Origin: Gaiella occulta
GTDB lineage: Bacteria > Actinomycetota > Thermoleophilia > Gaiellales > Gaiellaceae
Assembly: GCF_003351045.1 (NCBI RefSeq)
Contig: NZ_QQZY01000005.1
Location: forward strand, 62,001-126,000
DNA: 64,000 nt
Reading direction: 5' to 3'
Shown one piece after another: positions 6,228 to 20,435 of the stretch. The notes under the pieces were generated by a model. The model did no database searches. It was not told the DNA's origin and saw only the letters and a list, made by a program, of their open reading frames with translations. The stretch's first letter is position 1, and the number at the start of each line of letters is the position of its first letter. A program made the translations under genes and the position numbers.

Positions 6228-7019
6228 GTGCGCCGCCGTCACGGGCTGCTGACACTCCGTCGCGAAGACGGCAGGATCGTCTGCGAGCGGGTCAGGGTCG
6301 CCGACACGATGCTCCGCCGCATGCGCGGACTGCTCTTCCGCCGATCGGTGCAGAGCGACGAGGGTGTCGTGCTGCGCCCATCCTTCTCGATCCACACCGC
6401 GTTCATGCAGTTCCCGATCGACGTCGTCTTCCTCGACCAGGACCTGCGCGTGCTTCGCGTCGCGGCCTCCGTGCGACCGTTCCGCACCGCGTCCTGCCGG
6501 GGCTCGCGGGAGGTCGTCGAGCTGCGGGCCGGCGAGTGCGAGCGAAGAGGCCTCCGTGTGGGCGACCGCGTCGCCTGGGCGTCGGCGACGCCGGCGGCGC
6601 CCCCCGGCCCGACTGCCGCGACACCGGAATTCGGCGAGAGCAGGCGCTCGCGCGGCCTCCTCGCGAGCCGCGACGCGCGCTTCCTCAAGCTCGCGCGCTT
6701 CCTGCTCGACGGCCAGGGGATCGACCTGATCGGCAGCGTCCAGCCGAACGCCCTCGTGGGCGCGCTCGACGCGGCCGAGAGGCCCGATCTGATCGTGCTC
6801 GACGTCCACGAGGAGGCCGCCGCGGGGTTCGCGACCGCGAACGCGGCGCGGGCGCTGAGCCCCGACGTGCCGATCTTCCTCGTCGGCGCTCCCGACGTCG
6901 CGGCACGCGCGGCCGTGGGAGTTCGCATCTACGACAAGTGGAACGAGACCGAAGAGCTGGTCGCGGCGATCACGGCCGCGCTCGCAGCCGAGGCGGCGTA
7001 CGAGCGCCCCTCTGCCTGA
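6228..7019 (+). CDS. DUF192 domain protein fused to a receiver-like domain
   Basis: A 263-residue protein with two parts. Residues 1-117 match DUF192 (PF02643): motifs RMRGLLFR, SIHTAFMQFPIDVVFLD and a C-terminal ELRAG..GLRVGD segment. Residues 150-250 look like a response-regulator receiver: LLASRDARFLKLARFLL (one acidic residue, D159), LIVLDVHEE with a candidate phosphoacceptor D192, and YDKWNE with K237. The usual Thr/Ser after beta-4 appears to be Gly, so it may be degenerate. DUF192 has no settled function; it occurs beside tad genes in other genomes. It starts one base after tadC, and a histidine kinase follows. No DNA-binding output domain is present. Confidence 0.75.
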   Translation: MRRRHGLLTLRREDGRIVCERVRVADTMLRRMRGLLFRRSVQSDEGVVLRPSFSIHTAFMQFPIDVVFLDQDLRVLRVAASVRPFRTASCRGSREVVELRAGECERRGLRVGDRVAWASATPAAPPGPTAATPEFGESRRSRGLLASRDARFLKLARFLLDGQGIDLIGSVQPNALVGALDAAERPDLIVLDVHEEAAAGFATANAARALSPDVPIFLVGAPDVAARAAVGVRIYDKWNETEELVAAITAALAAEAAYERPSA

Positions 7020-13950: not shown

Positions 13951-14445
13951 ATGGCCAAGAACACGACCGCGAAGATCGCTCCCGCCGTCGAGTCGCTGAA
14001 GCCGTATCTCGACCGCGCGCTCAACGATCCGGGGTTCCGCGAGGACCTCAAGGAGGCGTTCGGCGCCGCGCGCAGGCTGTACGGCCCGCTCGTACACGAG
14101 AACGGGGGCATCGCCCAGTCCGCGTCGAAGCTCGCGACCGACGCGAAGGTGCAGGAGAACCTGCGCAAGGCGCTCGAGGACTTCGGCAGGGCCGCCGACA
14201 CGCTCAAGGGCAAGAAGCGGAAGGGACGCAAGGGGCGCAAGGCGATGCTGCTCGCAGGGCTCGTGGCGGGCGCGCTCTACAACCCGTGGTCGGGAACGCA
14301 GACCCGGCAGTGGCTGCTCGACCGCATCGCCGGCGACGACGACCTGCATCCACTCGAGGGCTTCGACGCGCCGCCGGCCGAGGAGGCGGCGGATGCCGCA
14401 GGCGAGGCCGCGGACGAGGCTGGCGAGAGCACGAAGGACGGCTAG
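13951..14445 (+). CDS. Unrecognised protein with basic linker, hydrophobic segment and acidic Ala/Glu tail
   Basis: A 164-residue protein I do not recognise. Residues 1-85 are predicted helical and amphipathic (SLKPYLDRALNDPGFREDL, LATDAKVQENLRKALEDFG). Then comes a very basic run of Lys/Arg/Gly, a short hydrophobic segment MLLAGLVAGALYNPW that could insert in or attach to the membrane, and an acidic tail of Ala/Glu/Asp. The start is the ATG at 13951 with GGAAAGGA 10 bases upstream. CATACT near 13907-13912 may be its -10. A strong hairpin follows its stop. Confidence 0.65.
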   Translation: MAKNTTAKIAPAVESLKPYLDRALNDPGFREDLKEAFGAARRLYGPLVHENGGIAQSASKLATDAKVQENLRKALEDFGRAADTLKGKKRKGRKGRKAMLLAGLVAGALYNPWSGTQTRQWLLDRIAGDDDLHPLEGFDAPPAEEAADAAGEAADEAGESTKDG

Positions 14446-14450
14446 ACGAG

Positions 14451-14486
14451 CGCGGGGAGGGGCGCTCGAGGCCGCCCTTCCCCGCG
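14451..14486. terminator. Bidirectional terminator-like hairpin between convergent genes
   Basis: 14451-14464 pairs with 14473-14486 (14 bp, one G-U pair on one strand) around an 8-base loop. It sits between the stop of the 164-residue protein (+) and the stop of the M23 peptidase gene (-). No clear T-run, as is common in GC-rich actinobacteria. Confidence 0.55.
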
Positions 14487-14493
14487 ATCCTCG

Positions 14494-15933
14494 CTAGCGG
14501 ACCCGGGCCGCGGGAGACGGCTGCGGCGAGCTGGCGGCGAGCGCCTGTTCGAGCGCGCCGGGAACGAGGCCGCTGCGGCCGGAGATGTCGTCGGCCTCGA
14601 GCAGGACGGCGCCCGCGGGCGGGGCGACGGCGCCGCCGGCGCCCGGCCCGTCGAGCGGCAGGTAGGCGCGGCCGGCCGCGAACGAGACGTCCTGCGCGCG
14701 CCGCCACGCGACGAGGAACGGGTACGGCGCGACGACGCCGTCGTAGCCGCGTTGCAGCAGCGAGACGGGATGGACCTCGAAGTGGAGGTGGGCCGGCCCG
14801 AGCTCCGCGTCGCCGGAACGGCCCATGAATCCGAGCACGTCGCCGGCGCGCACGCTGCGACCCTCGGCCGCGAGGGGCGAGTAGGCCGAGAGGTGCGCGT
14901 AGTAGAACGCGTTGCCGGCGCGATCGCGCAGCCACAGCCGCCAGCCGCCGATGTCGTTCCAGCCGACGGCGAAGACGGTGCCGTCGGCAACGGCGAGGAG
15001 AGGGGTTCCGAGCGGCGCGAGGATGTCCTCGCCGTGATGCCAGCCGCCGGCGACGTCGGCGCGCGGAGCACCGAAGGTGTCCCCGAACGAGGCGGGACCG
15101 TAGACTGGGAACAGGTACCCCGCGCCCGTCAGCTGCACGGCCACCTCGGGTGCCGTGCGCACGAACTCGGGCGGGACGCCGGGGATCGACGTCCCCGGCT
15201 CTCTCGGCGCACCGGCGGGGACGGCGGGCCGCGCCGGTGGGCGACGGGCGGTGGGAGGAGTCTGCGGCGGCGGCGCGGCACCCGCGGCCGCGGCCGCCGT
15301 CGCTGCCGCCGTCGCCGAGCCGACCCACACCTCGCTGCCCGGGGGCAGGCCGGCGTGCTCCGCGGTGAGCCTGACGCGCAGCCCGGTGACGGTGGCGCCG
15401 GCCGATCGCGGCCGCACCTGCGCCGTCTCCACGGCCGAGGCGAGCACCTCCAGCGTGCCCCAGTCCGCGAGCGGGAGCACGACGTTGGCGGTCGCGGCGA
15501 TCGGCTGGCCGAGCACGGTGAGGCCCGCGATACGCGATTCCGACACGCCGCTCGACGCGTTTGCCGCTCCCGCTGCGGCCGTCGCCTTCACATCCAGCGA
15601 AGCGGCCGTGATCTCGCCTCCGAACAGCGACACCGCCAGGGCCGTGACCCCGCCCTGCGCGCTCGACGAGACGCCGGGCGCCGCCGCCACCCCGGCACTC
15701 GCAGAGCCGATGAGGACGATCGAGCCGTCGTCGGGATAGGCATAGCCGCTGAGGGACTCGTTCGCCGCCTGCGGGGTCGCGAGCGCGATCGAGAGCTGGT
15801 CGGGCACGCCGGGCTGGATCACGCGCGAGACGATCGCGGTCGCGCGCGCGTCGGGCTGCGCGGGCGCCGCCGACGCGATCGCGGCGATCAGCGCGGCGAG
15901 GAGCGGCAGTGCGAGGAGCGGCGCGCGTCTCAC
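14494..15933 (-). CDS. Secreted M23-family peptidoglycan endopeptidase
   Basis: A 479-residue protein with a signal peptide (basic MRR, Ala/Leu-rich core, AAPA around 22-25). Residues 25-210 form a Ser/Ala/Val-rich beta-type domain, followed by an Ala/Pro linker. The C-terminal M23 (LytM/peptidase M23) domain spans about 275-400, with the zinc ligands in WHHGEDI and in AHLHFEVHP, so it should be catalytically active. Typical role: cleavage of peptide cross-links in the wall. The start is GTG 15933, whose GTGA overlaps the stop of the TauE-like gene upstream; an operon with an anion exporter pair is odd. Confidence 0.85.
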   Translation of the reverse strand: MRRAPLLALPLLAALIAAIASAAPAQPDARATAIVSRVIQPGVPDQLSIALATPQAANESLSGYAYPDDGSIVLIGSASAGVAAAPGVSSSAQGGVTALAVSLFGGEITAASLDVKATAAAGAANASSGVSESRIAGLTVLGQPIAATANVVLPLADWGTLEVLASAVETAQVRPRSAGATVTGLRVRLTAEHAGLPPGSEVWVGSATAAATAAAAAGAAPPPQTPPTARRPPARPAVPAGAPREPGTSIPGVPPEFVRTAPEVAVQLTGAGYLFPVYGPASFGDTFGAPRADVAGGWHHGEDILAPLGTPLLAVADGTVFAVGWNDIGGWRLWLRDRAGNAFYYAHLSAYSPLAAEGRSVRAGDVLGFMGRSGDAELGPAHLHFEVHPVSLLQRGYDGVVAPYPFLVAWRRAQDVSFAAGRAYLPLDGPGAGGAVAPPAGAVLLEADDISGRSGLVPGALEQALAASSPQPSPAARVR

Positions 15934-16325
15934 CGCGCACCAGGGTGGCGCCGGCCGAGACGGACCGTGCTGGCGACGAGCTGGGCCGCGACGAGCAGCA
16001 GCAGCACGCCGAACAGGCGCCGCAGCACGCTCTCCGACAGCGACGTCGCGACGCGAACGCCCACCTCGACCCCGGCGATCGACGCGATCCCGACGACGAG
16101 CGCCGGCCGCACCCGCATGTTGCCGTAGCGCGTCTGCCGCCAGATGCCGACCGCGGCCGTCGGGACGATCGCGAGCAGGGAGGTGGCCGCCGCCTCGACC
16201 TGGCCGAGACCGAGCGCGAGCAGCGTCGGCACGAAGAGGATGCCCCCGCCGACGCCGAACAGGCCCGACAGCACGCCGGCGGCGAGCCCGAGCGCCAGCG
16301 CGAGGACGATCGTCGTCGTGCTCAT
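15930..16325 (-). CDS. Half-size TauE/SafE-family membrane protein (second subunit)
   Basis: 131 residues with about four membrane helices. The TauE/SafE signature is near the N-terminus: LAAGVLSGLFGVGGGILFVP. Classical TauE/SafE (PF01925) transporters have eight helices built from two such repeats; here one repeat is a whole gene. It starts at ATG 16325, overlapping the upstream half-size gene by ATGA, and its own stop overlaps the M23 gene. The family exports sulfite, sulfoacetate or other organosulfur anions; the substrate here is unknown. Confidence 0.8.
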   Translation of the reverse strand: MSTTTIVLALALGLAAGVLSGLFGVGGGILFVPTLLALGLGQVEAAATSLLAIVPTAAVGIWRQTRYGNMRVRPALVVGIASIAGVEVGVRVATSLSESVLRRLFGVLLLLVAAQLVASTVRLGRRHPGAR

Positions 16326-16666
16326 GCGACGAGCAACCTGACGCCGATCGCGGCGAGCAGCAGCGCGAAGCCGATCGTCACCGCGCGCCCCGACAGGCGC
16401 CGCTGCACGGCCGAGCCGGCGAGCGCGCCGGCCATCGCGGGCACGCCGACGAGCGCGGCGTAGGCAAGGTCGACCTTGCCGTGCGCCGCGTAGAGGACGA
16501 CGCCGGCGAGCGCGGTGATCGCGATCGCGCCGAGCGAGGCCGCGGTCGCCTCCTTCGCCGCGAGCCCGGCGAAGCCGATCAGGAGCGGCACGATCACGAT
16601 GCCGCCGCCGACGCCGAACAGGGAGCTGAACACTCCTGCGACGAGGCCGATGAAGACGAGGCGCAC
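16322..16666 (-). CDS. Half-size TauE/SafE-family membrane protein (first subunit)
   Basis: 114 residues with four predicted helices and the same signature, LVAGVFSSLFGVGGGIVIVP. It begins at GTG 16666 with a -10 hexamer 6 bases upstream, and its stop overlaps the start of the second half-size gene (ATGA). The simplest reading is that the two form a heterodimer equal to one full TauE/SafE protein. No frame-shift joins them: the join has a clean stop and a clean coupled start. Confidence 0.8.
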   Translation of the reverse strand: MRLVFIGLVAGVFSSLFGVGGGIVIVPLLIGFAGLAAKEATAASLGAIAITALAGVVLYAAHGKVDLAYAALVGVPAMAGALAGSAVQRRLSGRAVTIGFALLLAAIGVRLLVA

Positions 16667-16671
16667 TGGCG

Positions 16672-16678
16672 TATCCTA
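16672..16678. promoter_or_regulatory. Shared symmetric -10 element of tauE pair and otsB
   Basis: TATCCTA reads TATCCT on the plus strand (8 bases before the otsB GTG) and TAGGAT on the minus strand (exactly 6 bases before the TauE GTG at 16666). The two start codons are only 19 bases apart, so both promoters must share this segment. Confidence 0.5.
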
Positions 16679-16685
16679 GGCGGGG

Positions 16686-17399
16686 GTGCAGATTCCGGAT
16701 CCCCTCCGTGCGCTCGTCGCGCAGCCGTCGGCGGCGGCGCTGCTCTTCGACGTCGACGGCACGCTCGCCCCGATCGTCGACCGGCCCGAAGGCGCGGAGG
16801 TGCCCGAGGCGACGCGCGCGGAGCTCCGCCGCCTCGCCGGCCGCTACGGGCTCGTGGCCTGCATCAGCGGCCGGCCCGGGAGCGACGCCGCCCGCGTGGT
16901 CGGCGTCCCCGACCTCACGTACGTCGGCGAGCACGGGCTCGAGCTCGCTCCCGGCGCAGAGGCGTGGGTGAAGGCGATCGCCGCGTTCGCCGACGCCGCG
17001 CCCTGGCCCGCCGAGCGCAAGCGGCTCACCGTCTCGTTCCACTGGCGCGAGAGCGCCGACGAGGAGGCGGCCCGACGGGCGCTCGAGGGCGTCGCCGCCG
17101 CCGCCGCGGAGGCGGGGCTCGTGCCCCGCTGGGGCCGCAAGGTGCTGGAGGTACGCCCGCCGGTGGACGCCGACAAGGGGAGCGCGGTGGGGGAGCTGCT
17201 CCAGCGCTCGGGATTGCGCCGCGCCCTCTACGCGGGCGACGACGCTACCGACCTGGACGCGTTCAGGGCACTCGACGGGCTCCCGTGCGGGGTGCGCGTC
17301 GCGGTCGTGTCAGCGGAGGCGCCCGCTGCGCTGCGCGAAGCGGCCGACCTCACGGTCGCCGGCCCGGCCCAGCTGCTCGAGCTGCTGCGATCCCTGTAG
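16686..17399 (+). CDS. otsB: Trehalose-6-phosphate phosphatase
   Basis: A 237-residue HAD hydrolase that removes phosphate from trehalose-6-phosphate. Motif I is LLFDVDGTLAPIVDRP (nucleophile and acid Asp), with ISGRPG, YVGEHGLEL (the trehalose-phosphatase GxHGxE motif), ADKGSAV and motif III/IV GDDATDLDAF. These are specific for OtsB among HAD enzymes. No otsA lies in the window. Start GTG 16686; divergently transcribed from the half-size TauE genes. Confidence 0.9.
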   Translation: MQIPDPLRALVAQPSAAALLFDVDGTLAPIVDRPEGAEVPEATRAELRRLAGRYGLVACISGRPGSDAARVVGVPDLTYVGEHGLELAPGAEAWVKAIAAFADAAPWPAERKRLTVSFHWRESADEEAARRALEGVAAAAAEAGLVPRWGRKVLEVRPPVDADKGSAVGELLQRSGLRRALYAGDDATDLDAFRALDGLPCGVRVAVVSAEAPAALREAADLTVAGPAQLLELLRSL

Positions 17400-17400
17400 G

Positions 17401-17415
17401 GCGGCGAGGCGCCGC
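17401..17415. terminator. Short GC hairpin between otsB and the PLP decarboxylase
   Basis: GCGGCG pairs with CGCCGC around AGG, directly after the otsB stop and followed by GTTT. It lies between convergent genes and could end transcription from the plus strand. Confidence 0.4.
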
Positions 17416-17421
17416 GTTTCG

Positions 17422-18729
17422 CTACAGCGCCGCCGCCTCGCGGCGGAGCACGTCCCAGGCGAGCCGGACGTCCTCCTCCGCCGTGCGCGCGTTGCCGATC
17501 GCGAGCCTGAGCACGTAGTGCCCGTCGAGCCTCGTGTGCGAGAGGAACACCTCGCCGCTGTCGTTGACGCGCCGCAGCAGCGCCTCGTTCTCCTCGTCGC
17601 CGCCGTCGCGGCGGAAGCAGACGAGCGAGAAGTGGCGCGGCGCGCACACCGTCCAGCCCGGCTCTGCCCGCACCCAGGACTCGAACAGCGCCGCGAGCCG
17701 CACGTGCTCGCGCAGGATCGCCTGCAGCCCCTCCCGGCCGTAGCAGCGCAGCGTCGCCCACAGCTTCAGCGCCCGGAAGCGGCGTCCGAGCGGGGAGGCG
17801 TACTCGCTCAGGCTGACCACGTCCTCGCTCACCCGCAGGTACTCCGGCACGAGGCTGAACGCGCGGCGCAGGTCGTCGGGCCGCCGCGAGAAGAACGCGG
17901 AGCAGTCCATCGGTGTGAACAGCCACTTGTGCGGGTTGACGCCGATCGAGTCGGCGCGCTCCCAGCCGGCGAAGTGGTGGCGCAGCTCGGGGCAGACGGC
18001 GGCGGCGCCCGCATAGGCCGCGTCGACGTGCAGCCACACGCCCTCCGCGGCGGTCATGTCCGCGAGCAGCGAGACGGGATCGACGGCGGCCGACGACGTC
18101 GTCCCGACGGTGGCGACGAGGGCACAGGCATTGGAGAGGTCGACGAGGTCGGGACGCATCGCGTGGGTGCCGTCGGCGGGCACGGTGCGCAACTCGAGCT
18201 CGAGCAGGCGCGCGGCCTTCGTCGTCGACGAGTGCGTGTGCTCGGAGCAGACGACGACCCGCCGCTCCGGCCTGGCGGCACGCGCCGCGGCGAGCGCCGT
18301 GACGAGGCCGGAGGAGGCGGTGTCCTCGATGTGTCCGTGCAGGGGATCGGGCAGGCCGAGCAGCTGCCGCAGCCAGTCGAGCGTCACCTCCTCCAGCTCC
18401 TGCAAGGCGGGCGAGGCCCGCCAGAGGATGCCGACCTGGTTGAGACCCGCGATCAGCAGCTCGGCGAGGATGCCGGGCTCGCCGCCCGTCGTCGCGAAGT
18501 ACGCGAAGTAGCGGGGGCTCTGCCAGTGGGTGATGCCGGGCATCAGCACCTCGTCGAGGTCGCGCAGCAGCGCCGCGAACGGCTCGGGCGCCTCGGGCGC
18601 CGCCGGCGGCAGCGCGGCGCGAATCCGCCCCGGCTCGACCGTGGAGAGCACCGGGTACTCGCGTACGCGCTCGAGGTACGACGCGACCCACTCGAGCGCC
18701 GCGGCGCCGTCGTCCCGGAAGCTGCTCAC
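17422..18729 (-). CDS. Group II pyridoxal-5'-phosphate-dependent decarboxylase (aromatic amino acid decarboxylase-like)
   Basis: 435 residues. The family motifs are HWQSPRYFAYFA near residue 80, the substrate/cofactor region DTASSGLVTALAAAR, WLHVDAAYAG (Asp binding the pyridine N), and NPHKWLFT with the PLP Schiff-base Lys. The layout resembles eukaryotic-type aromatic-L-amino-acid/tyrosine decarboxylases more than glutamate decarboxylase; the exact substrate cannot be read from sequence. The GTG start at 18729 overlaps the polX stop (GTGA), so the two share a transcript. Confidence 0.85.
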   Translation of the reverse strand: MSSFRDDGAAALEWVASYLERVREYPVLSTVEPGRIRAALPPAAPEAPEPFAALLRDLDEVLMPGITHWQSPRYFAYFATTGGEPGILAELLIAGLNQVGILWRASPALQELEEVTLDWLRQLLGLPDPLHGHIEDTASSGLVTALAAARAARPERRVVVCSEHTHSSTTKAARLLELELRTVPADGTHAMRPDLVDLSNACALVATVGTTSSAAVDPVSLLADMTAAEGVWLHVDAAYAGAAAVCPELRHHFAGWERADSIGVNPHKWLFTPMDCSAFFSRRPDDLRRAFSLVPEYLRVSEDVVSLSEYASPLGRRFRALKLWATLRCYGREGLQAILREHVRLAALFESWVRAEPGWTVCAPRHFSLVCFRRDGGDEENEALLRRVNDSGEVFLSHTRLDGHYVLRLAIGNARTAEEDVRLAWDVLRREAAAL

Positions 18730-20435
18730 CCGCGCATCTTCGCGATCTGCGCCCATGTGCGCGTGTTGAGCACCTGATCCTTCGTCAGCCAGGCGCGCCG
18801 CGCCTGGCCGATGCCGAGCTCCGCGTAGGCGAGCGCCTGCGTCGTGTGGGCGTCGCTGTCGACGGGGACGAGCACGCCGGCCTCGCCGGCGAGGCGTGCG
18901 TGGACGTCGCGCATGTCGAGCCGCTCCGGCTGCGCGTTGATCTCCAGCGCGGTGCGCGTCTCCGCGGCACGCGCGACGATGCGCTCGACGTCCACGTCGG
19001 CGCCGCGGCGGCGCGAGAGCCGGCGCCCGCTGAGATGGCCGATGCAGTCGACATGCGGGCTCTCGATCGCGGCGAGGATGCGCTCTGTCGGGCTGCGGTC
19101 GAACGAGGTGTGGAGCGACGCTACGACCCAGTCGAGCTGCTCCAGCACCTCGTCCGCGAGGTCGACGTCGCCCTTCGCCGTGATGTTCGCCTCGACGCCG
19201 CGCAGCACGCGGAACGGCGCCACGCGCTCGTTGACGGCCGCGATCTCCTCCCACTGCGCCTCGATGCGGCCGTCGCGCAGGGAGTGCGAGTGGTCGGTGA
19301 GGCAGAGGAAGCGGTAGCCGCGTGCCGCGGCCGCGCGCGCCATCTCCTCGATCGAGGCCCTCCCGTCCGCCGACCAGCTGGAATGGCAGTGCATGTCGCC
19401 TTTCAGATCTGCCAGCTCGACGAGATGCGGCAGCGTGCCTGTGCGTGCCGCCTCGAGCTCGCCCGCGCTCTCGCGCAGCTCCGGCGGGATGAACGCGTAG
19501 CCGAGGAACGCGTACAGCGACTCCTCGTCGCGGAACGTGCGCACCTCACCGGTCTCGCTCACCGTGACGCCGTACTCGGACACCGACAGGCCGCCGCGCT
19601 GCGCCTCCTCGCGCAGCGCCACGTTGTGCTCCTTCGAGCCCGTGAAGTGCTGCAGGAGGTCGCCGTAGCTCTCGGGCGCGGCGACGCGCAGGTCGAGGCG
19701 CAGCCCCTGCTTCGTGATCACGGTCGCCTTGCTGTCGCCGTGCGCGACGACTTCGAGCACCCAGGGCAGCGCGACGAAGTGCGCGGTGAGAGCGGCCGGG
19801 TCGGCGGCCGTGGCGATCACGTCGAGGTCGCGGAACGTCTCCTTGCGACGGCGGACGCTGCCCGCCTCCGACACCTCGACGGCCGCAGGGTGCGCACGCA
19901 GCGCCTCGACGACCTCGCGCAGCAGCGGCAGGCCGGAGCCGAGCAGGCCCCGGCGCGGCTCGCCGGCCGCCGCGCCCTCGGCGAGCGCCCGCAGGATCTT
20001 CTCCTCCGACTTCTGCCCGAACCCGGGCAGGGCACGCAGCCGCTGCCGCTCGGCCGCCTCGCGGAGGCCGGCGAGCGTCGTGACGCCGAGCTCGCGCCAG
20101 ATCCGCGCCGCGGTCTTCGGGCCGAGGCCCGGCAGGCGCATGAACGAGGCCACCTCGCCGGGCACCTGCGCCCGCCGCCGCGAGAGCGCCTGCATCTCGC
20201 CGCTCTCGACGGCCTCGACGATCTTCGCCTCGATCGTCTTGCCGATGCCCGGCAGCTCCCTCGCCGTGCCCGCGAGCGCGAGCTCTGCGACGGACGCCGC
20301 CGTGTCGCGGATCCTCGCGGCGGCGCGCCGGTAGGCGAGCACGCGGAACGGCTGCTCGCCGAGGATCTCGGACAGGTCTGCCAGCAGCTCGAGCTGGTCG
20401 GCGAGATCGCCGTTGCGGGGGAGCGCGGCTGCCAC
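18726..20435 (-). CDS. polX: DNA polymerase/3'-5' exonuclease PolX
   Basis: 569 residues, the normal length for bacterial PolX, a repair polymerase. N-terminal helix-hairpin-helix 8 kDa region (LPGIGKTIEAKIVEAVESG, LPGLGPKTAARIW); polymerase core with the metal motif FRDLDVI and the third Asp in RLDLRV; C-terminal PHP exonuclease with its metal ligands in KGDMHCHS, LTDHSHS, GVEANI, SLHTSF, IGHLSGR, EINAQP and DSDAHT. Both activities look intact. Start GTG 20435 with TATGAT 6 bases upstream. Confidence 0.92.
   Translation of the reverse strand: MAAALPRNGDLADQLELLADLSEILGEQPFRVLAYRRAAARIRDTAASVAELALAGTARELPGIGKTIEAKIVEAVESGEMQALSRRRAQVPGEVASFMRLPGLGPKTAARIWRELGVTTLAGLREAAERQRLRALPGFGQKSEEKILRALAEGAAAGEPRRGLLGSGLPLLREVVEALRAHPAAVEVSEAGSVRRRKETFRDLDVIATAADPAALTAHFVALPWVLEVVAHGDSKATVITKQGLRLDLRVAAPESYGDLLQHFTGSKEHNVALREEAQRGGLSVSEYGVTVSETGEVRTFRDEESLYAFLGYAFIPPELRESAGELEAARTGTLPHLVELADLKGDMHCHSSWSADGRASIEEMARAAAARGYRFLCLTDHSHSLRDGRIEAQWEEIAAVNERVAPFRVLRGVEANITAKGDVDLADEVLEQLDWVVASLHTSFDRSPTERILAAIESPHVDCIGHLSGRRLSRRRGADVDVERIVARAAETRTALEINAQPERLDMRDVHARLAGEAGVLVPVDSDAHTTQALAYAELGIGQARRAWLTKDQVLNTRTWAQIAKMRG

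Follow-up and report, generated by a model that had tools for sequence, protein, structure and literature searches.

A symmetric -10 element probably shared by two divergent genes of Gaiella occulta predicted to be leaderless, and conserved in its relatives

Results

In the 64,000-nucleotide stretch of Gaiella occulta DNA analysed here (the window), the seven-base element TATCCTA lies between the start codons of the divergent genes tauE-A and otsB, and probably acts as a single bidirectional core promoter, read in both orientations by the housekeeping sigma factor and giving a leaderless mRNA on each side. Direct reading of positions 16664 to 16688 gives CAC.TGGCG.TATCCTA.GGCGGGG.GTG, in which CAC is the complement of the minus-strand GTG of tauE-A and the closing GTG is the plus-strand start of otsB. 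A first-pass annotation of this DNA had counted 19 bases between the two codons (GTG at 16666 and GTG at 16686) and had recognized in the heptamer TATCCT on one strand and TAGGAT on the other; our reading confirms both (Table 1). Because each reading frame meets a TAG immediately before its start, within the element or overlapping it (16676 to 16678 on the minus strand for tauE-A and 16677 to 16679 on the plus strand for otsB), neither gene can start further upstream. The otsB protein has one match in its own genome at an E value of ≤0.001. On the minus strand, the second TauE/SafE half overlaps the first, and an M23 peptidase gene overlaps the second half in turn and is probably the third gene of the tauE unit, an operon membership deduced from the overlap.

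Table 1. Features at the tauE/otsB locus, in window coordinates
Feature	Position	Strand	Evidence or remark
Putative shared symmetric -10 element TATCCTA (TANNNTA)	16672..16678	both	Direct reading; conserved in relatives
otsB -10 hexamer TATCCT (putative)	16672..16677	+	Last base 8 nt before GTG; in leaderless peak
tauE-A -10 hexamer TAGGAT (putative)	16673..16678	-	Last base 6 nt before GTG; top of leaderless peak
otsB start codon GTG	16686..16688	+	Transcription start predicted at 16684-16686
tauE-A start codon GTG	16664..16666	-	Transcription start predicted at 16666
otsB, trehalose-6-phosphate phosphatase, 237 aa	16686..17399	+	Pfam PF02358 (Trehalose_PPase), 7.4e-28
tauE-A, first TauE/SafE half-size protein, 114 aa	16322..16666	-	Pfam PF01925, 3.5e-20
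tauE-B, second TauE/SafE half	15930..16325	-	Pfam PF01925, 1.5e-25; 4-nt overlap with tauE-A
M23 peptidase gene	14494..15933	-	Pfam PF01551, 4.3e-18; 4-nt overlap with tauE-B

The genome itself bears a signature of leaderless starts. We sampled 463,628 bases, namely the window and 20 further stretches (about 15% of 3.03 Mb), and called 458 genes with 444 testable starts, which the gene caller had chosen without using any upstream signal. The motif TANNNT ends 6 to 9 nt before the start codon at 82 of these 444 starts (36, 22, 13, and 11 starts at 6, 7, 8, and 9 nt, respectively), compared with 0.03 to 0.11% per position at 6,384 internal start-like codons taken as a control. Shine-Dalgarno-like 4-mers accompany 8 of the 82 leaderless starts versus 127 of the 362 other starts in the sample. 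Among the 69 sampled leaderless promoters that have no divergent gene within 60 nt, the hexamer is followed by A in four cases, and its third base is T in one. The first-pass annotation had placed both hexamers at leaderless spacing; the two distances indeed fall within the peak of 6 to 9 nt, but because the spacing of otsB is 8 and not 6, "leaderless" is to be taken with a latitude of about 2 nt for this gene.

The element is conserved in relatives. tauE was matched in 77 of 101 genomes, as was otsB, and 84 loci were analysed, 64 picked by tauE and 20 by otsB, with genomes having only weak tauE matches left out; class-level genomes stand outside the order-level counts, and the window's own genome is included in each conservation count. 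Within the order, 43 loci have tauE and otsB adjacent with a gap of up to 70 nt, and in 38 of them TANNNTA is common to both genes; these are distributed over family f1 (23/28), family f2 (5/5), and family f3 (10/10), and the median otsB identity among the sharing loci is 59%. As for the adjacent pairs that do not share it, four have lost the base that only tauE would need (L010, L026, L028, and L032), and L040 yielded no otsB hexamer. A further four f1 pairs, in which the genes stand more than 70 nt apart, do not share an element (L011, L013, L014, and L049), nor does any of the five adjacent pairs in other families of the class. One locus (L048), in which the otsB match comes in two pieces, was left out of the adjacency count, although it carries TATGGTA with both starts. 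Loci L095 to L129, six of which are apparent duplicates of analysed contigs, were likewise left out of the order-level analysis; 12 of them show the head-to-head tauE/otsB arrangement, and three share the element (L098, L100, and L108).

The conservation extends to the base that distinguishes a symmetric element from an ordinary hexamer. Counted from otsB genes that face tauE within 70 nt, position 7 is A in 38 of 42 cases from three families; counted from tauE, it is A in 39 of 39. Pairwise identity at this position is 0.82 and 1.0, respectively, versus 0.25 to 0.65 in the flanking columns. The inner bases vary while TA...TA stays, giving eight cores (TATCCTA, 15; TATCGTA, 8; TATTGTA, 4; TATTCTA, 4; TAGTGTA, 3; TATGCTA, 2; TACTCTA, 1; TATGGTA, 1; one side only counted per shared locus, here and in the comparison with partner frames below); the third base is nonetheless T in 38 of the 42 tauE/otsB cores. 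In all 38 shared loci the spacing is 6 to 8 nt on the tauE side and 6 to 10 nt on the otsB side, and Shine-Dalgarno-like 4-mers (AGGA, GGAG, or GAGG) are missing from the otsB side in 36. Since the A at position 7 would be needed solely by the opposite promoter, a chance origin of the symmetry is unlikely. Taken with the leaderless signature of the genome, this conservation gives good support to the earlier proposal of one symmetric -10 element serving two leaderless genes, as far as sequence comparison can speak to it.

The arrangement is not confined to one gene pair. Scans of the genome for CAY-TANNNTA-RTG at four spacings detected seven distinct sites, five of which lie exactly between two divergent called genes, whereas the reversed control patterns gave, for the four spacings (forward, reverse), 1 and 1, 0 and 1, 0 and 0, and 0 and 0 sites. 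By Pfam, the five pairs are tauE/otsB, Ndt-like/QueF-like, YgfZ-like/SuoX-like, endonuclease-IV-like/MFS, and rhomboid/ComB-like, the short names being in part presumptive. With four spacings covered, five is a lower bound. The first-pass annotation had called a fully leaderless, fully shared promoter striking; it is not a lone case, as there are at least five such pairs in this genome. The remaining two sites lie 54 bp apart (L170, 1501-1578; G000:C3:112064-112141); both are symmetric, and each is the -10 element of one of two divergent called genes, with one start called at each.

Three of the pairs besides tauE/otsB recur in relatives. Matches to the QueF-like gene came from 20 of 71 genomes (20 loci analysed), those to the SuoX-like gene from 60 of 71 (29 loci, with L226 left out), and those to the ComB-like gene from 37 of 46 (30 loci). 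Among adjacent pairs, the own genome included, both genes have the element in common in 5 of 9 cases for Ndt/QueF, 18 of 27 for YgfZ/SuoX, and 16 of 25 for rhomboid/ComB. Anchored on the plus-strand gene, position 7 is A in 8 of 9, 18 of 19, and 17 of 17 cases, respectively, the last count with a gap cut of 35 that was chosen after split loci had been found at 53 or more. The endonuclease-IV-like/MFS combination was rejected as a conserved pair: among 30 loci (from 40 matches in 46 genomes) it is adjacent in two and shares the element in one, that of the own genome. In relatives, the endonuclease-IV-like gene instead faces a gltX-like gene in ten loci (L235, L238, L239, L241 to L245, L250, and L253) or a glnS-like gene in one (L246), with TANNNTA in 11 of 11; two of these 11 partner proteins were checked by Pfam, and the rest were judged by resemblance. 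A scan of 61 genomes for the 5/6 geometry showed enrichment in family f1 (76 versus 33 in the control) and none in f2 to f4 (19 versus 35). A gene caller trained on the own genome placed divergent pairs at 4 of 29 loci from the scan, and it missed the known L301, L304, and L315, so that its calls carry no weight here.

Neither a -35 box nor an extended -10 motif stands out. A consensus scan of positions 16300 to 17000 that requires a -35 element found no sigma-70-type hexamer pair and no terminator-like site. Over 78 shared loci, the best -35 match averages 2.54 of 6 on the plus side and 2.40 of 6 on the minus side versus 2.44 at control offsets, and matches of at least 4 of 6 occur in 9/78 and 2/78 loci versus 5.4% of controls. 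TGN precedes none of the 156 half-promoters. A hidden -35 or extended -10 element was therefore set aside, as there is nothing convincing in the 78 loci or at 16300 to 17000. No Rfam family reaches its gathering score within 14000 to 19000.

Relatives in which the partners are split or lost allow a natural comparison. Six rhomboid/ComB loci have a separate promoter for each gene, and position 7 is A in none of their 12 hexamers. In L265, L266, L269, L270, and L275, a gap of 53 to 58 nt divides the two genes, and each has a leaderless-type promoter of its own (TAACGTC or TAAGGTC for one, TACGATG or TACGATT for the other); these loci apparently represent an alternative state of the same pair. 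QueF genes without an adjacent Ndt gene have the A in none of three cases, and lone or distant otsB genes have it in 6 of 10. The 12 order-level tauE loci without an otsB match fall into six with a tauE-side TANNNT minus the base that only otsB would need (L003, L004, L005, L008, L037, and L065), three that keep this base (L021, L025, and L027), and three without TANNNT (L009, L018, and L031). The element of L021 faces an open frame of 218 codons; L025 and L027 keep a symmetric TATCTTA without otsB, and the opposite frame in L027, of 5 codons, is possibly a remnant of a lost partner.

Over all sets, position 7 is A in 93 of 107 cases with a divergent frame of at least 100 codons at leaderless spacing and otherwise in 20 of 68, a count that treats relatives as independent. 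Six tests on FastTree trees offered only 3, 6, 3, 2, 0, and 3 supported independent pairs, and with so few pairs none was significant. Their direction agrees for tauE (1.2 versus 0.0), endonuclease (2.5 versus 0.0), and ComB (1.0 versus 0.0), is mixed for otsB (1.3 versus 1.0), and is empty for SuoX and YgfZ (0 versus 0). Because these tests are underpowered, and because of the A retained at lone otsB genes and the Ndt/QueF exceptions discussed below, we base the case on how deeply the element is conserved and on how it differs from single-gene promoters rather than on the association.

Discussion

There are three other explanations for a symmetric heptamer at this place. The least improbable of them, though still unlikely, is that one gene alone uses the element, the symmetry being a by-product and the other gene being transcribed from elsewhere. 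Such use could account for the TANNNTA at 6 of 10 lone or distant otsB genes, for the four adjacent tauE/otsB loci without the tauE-only base, and for three adjacent Ndt/QueF loci (L179, L180, and L185) in which the A is present and no matching Ndt start was found. It fits poorly with the rarity of A after TANNNT where no divergent gene is close (4 of 69 leaderless promoters) and its frequency at tauE/otsB (38 of 42), with start-codon spacings held on both sides in 38 of 38 shared loci, and with the absence of the otsB-only base from half of the tauE loci without otsB, even though it is kept in three and three lack TANNNT altogether.

We give much less credence still to the two remaining explanations. 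That the short palindrome is an operator for a transcription factor and not a promoter would suit its symmetry and its place between divergent genes, as well as the invariant TAGCGTA of all 16 shared rhomboid/ComB loci and the G that follows the heptamer in 19 of 19 YgfZ/SuoX cases. At tauE/otsB, however, there are eight cores and changing flanks, and the same distance to the start codon is found at unrelated pairs and at single leaderless genes; nor was another promoter-like site seen at 16300 to 17000, in a scan whose need for a -35 would make it miss a promoter lacking one. With cores and flanks varying in this way, an operator is hardly to be expected. Equally improbable is that TAGGAT provides the Shine-Dalgarno sequence (AGGA, 7 nt before GTG) of a leadered tauE. 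AGGA is indeed present in the window, which is among the 15 of 38 shared loci with a Shine-Dalgarno-like 4-mer on the tauE side, but the other 23 have none there and keep TANNNT, and on these comparative grounds we reject the idea.

In the shared promoter that we favor, the two hexamers would overlap by five bases, and A2 and T6 of TANNNTA would be used by both genes: position 16673 would supply A-11 for otsB and T-7 for tauE, and position 16677 would supply T-7 for otsB and A-11 for tauE. The T at 16672 would serve otsB only, and the A at 16678 (T-12 on the minus strand) tauE only. On either side, RNA synthesis would begin 6 to 8 nt from the element, on the start codon or no more than about 2 bases from it, so that both mRNAs would be leaderless and the upstream promoter region of each gene would lie inside the coding sequence of its partner. 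The start sites, the sigma factor, translation from a 5'-terminal GTG, and any regulatory role are features that we infer.

Symmetric bidirectional promoters, as described by Warman, Grainger, Wade, and colleagues, have divergent starts 7 to 25 bp apart and commonly 18 bp apart, the distance at which -7 and -11 coincide reciprocally (PMC10268837). The predicted distance at tauE/otsB is about 20 bp, given spacers of 6 and 8 nt, or 18 bp with a 2-nt otsB leader; spacers of 6 nt on both sides would likewise put the predicted starts 18 bp apart. Like those promoters, the present one would offer a single -10 element in both orientations, with reciprocal -7T and -11A (TANNNTA) and no simultaneous occupancy. 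Unlike them, both of its predicted starts are start codons, with no leaders and no -35 standing out, and the arrangement persists in three families at one locus and is met again at further gene pairs. We thus read it, from the sequence comparison, as a variant on known promoters in a doubly leaderless, conserved form. The word "leaderless" is absent from PMC10268837 and PMC12825309.

The first-pass annotation had further proposed that transcription is mutually exclusive between an exporter pair and a trehalose enzyme. From the geometry, two polymerases should exclude each other sterically on a single DNA copy, and this part of the proposal stands; mutually exclusive expression need not follow, since five bidirectional promoters of Escherichia coli had a basal activity too low for competition, according to Warman et al. 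2026 (PMC12825309). The same paper reports that the divergent RNA can be repressed once one direction is substantially activated (PMC12825309). One polymerase at a time would occupy each DNA copy of the tauE/otsB element, but with a low basal activity both genes would still be expressed, and the element with its flanks would determine their ratio.

Leaderless genes of actinobacteria show the same TANNNT, distance, and high-GC pattern (Zheng 2011, PMC3160421; Cortes 2013, PMC3898074), with GTG about equally frequent in leaderless and leadered genes. One -10 element shared by two leaderless genes is not described in the passages of these two papers that were consulted. In the Cortes data, TANNNT of Mycobacterium tuberculosis comes without a conserved -35 (PMC3898074), and another study reports a conserved -35 signal in mycobacteria (PMC4128351). 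A doubly leaderless precedent is contained in a Cortes figure legend, in which the divergent genes prpD and Rv1129c are both leaderless (PMC3898074). The lysG/lysE genes of M. tuberculosis (PMC5648196) resemble the present pair in being divergent, with overlapping promoters and one leaderless lysE transcript; they differ in their 108-bp intergenic region, in a central inverted repeat bound by LysG, and in that only the distal lysE promoter takes part in the overlap, the leaderless transcript arising from a second one. Titles and the beginnings of abstracts yielded no doubly leaderless pair with one common -10 element, which is weak evidence of absence, as subscription papers were mostly beyond that coverage.

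We lean slightly toward a broader hypothesis, in which these elements would form a promoter class of the Gaiellales, of seven base pairs, without a -35, leaderless on both sides, and with upstream regions in the coding sequence of the partner. Bidirectionality would be kept by selection, the base of the partner would tend to decay after a split or loss, and a single polymerase site would serve to express both genes at a fixed, low ratio. TauE and OtsB are not known to be functionally linked. Transcription in both directions from a symmetric -10 element may be selected or may be a mere consequence of the symmetry of DNA. One base pair should affect otsB alone and another tauE alone, free of any complication from a leader, and relatives offer natural pairings, splits, and losses of such pairs; selection on bidirectionality and competition of polymerases for one site thus become directly testable.

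Two minor observations may be added. An open frame listed at 24,557 amino acids falls together with a long stretch of N, which makes up 13,000 of the 20,000 bases read there. The TauE halves of the window match different parts of the Pfam model, tauE-A positions 129 to 237 and tauE-B positions 2 to 111, so that their order looks swapped, and two tandem TauE matches are also found in many of the genomes matched by tauE.
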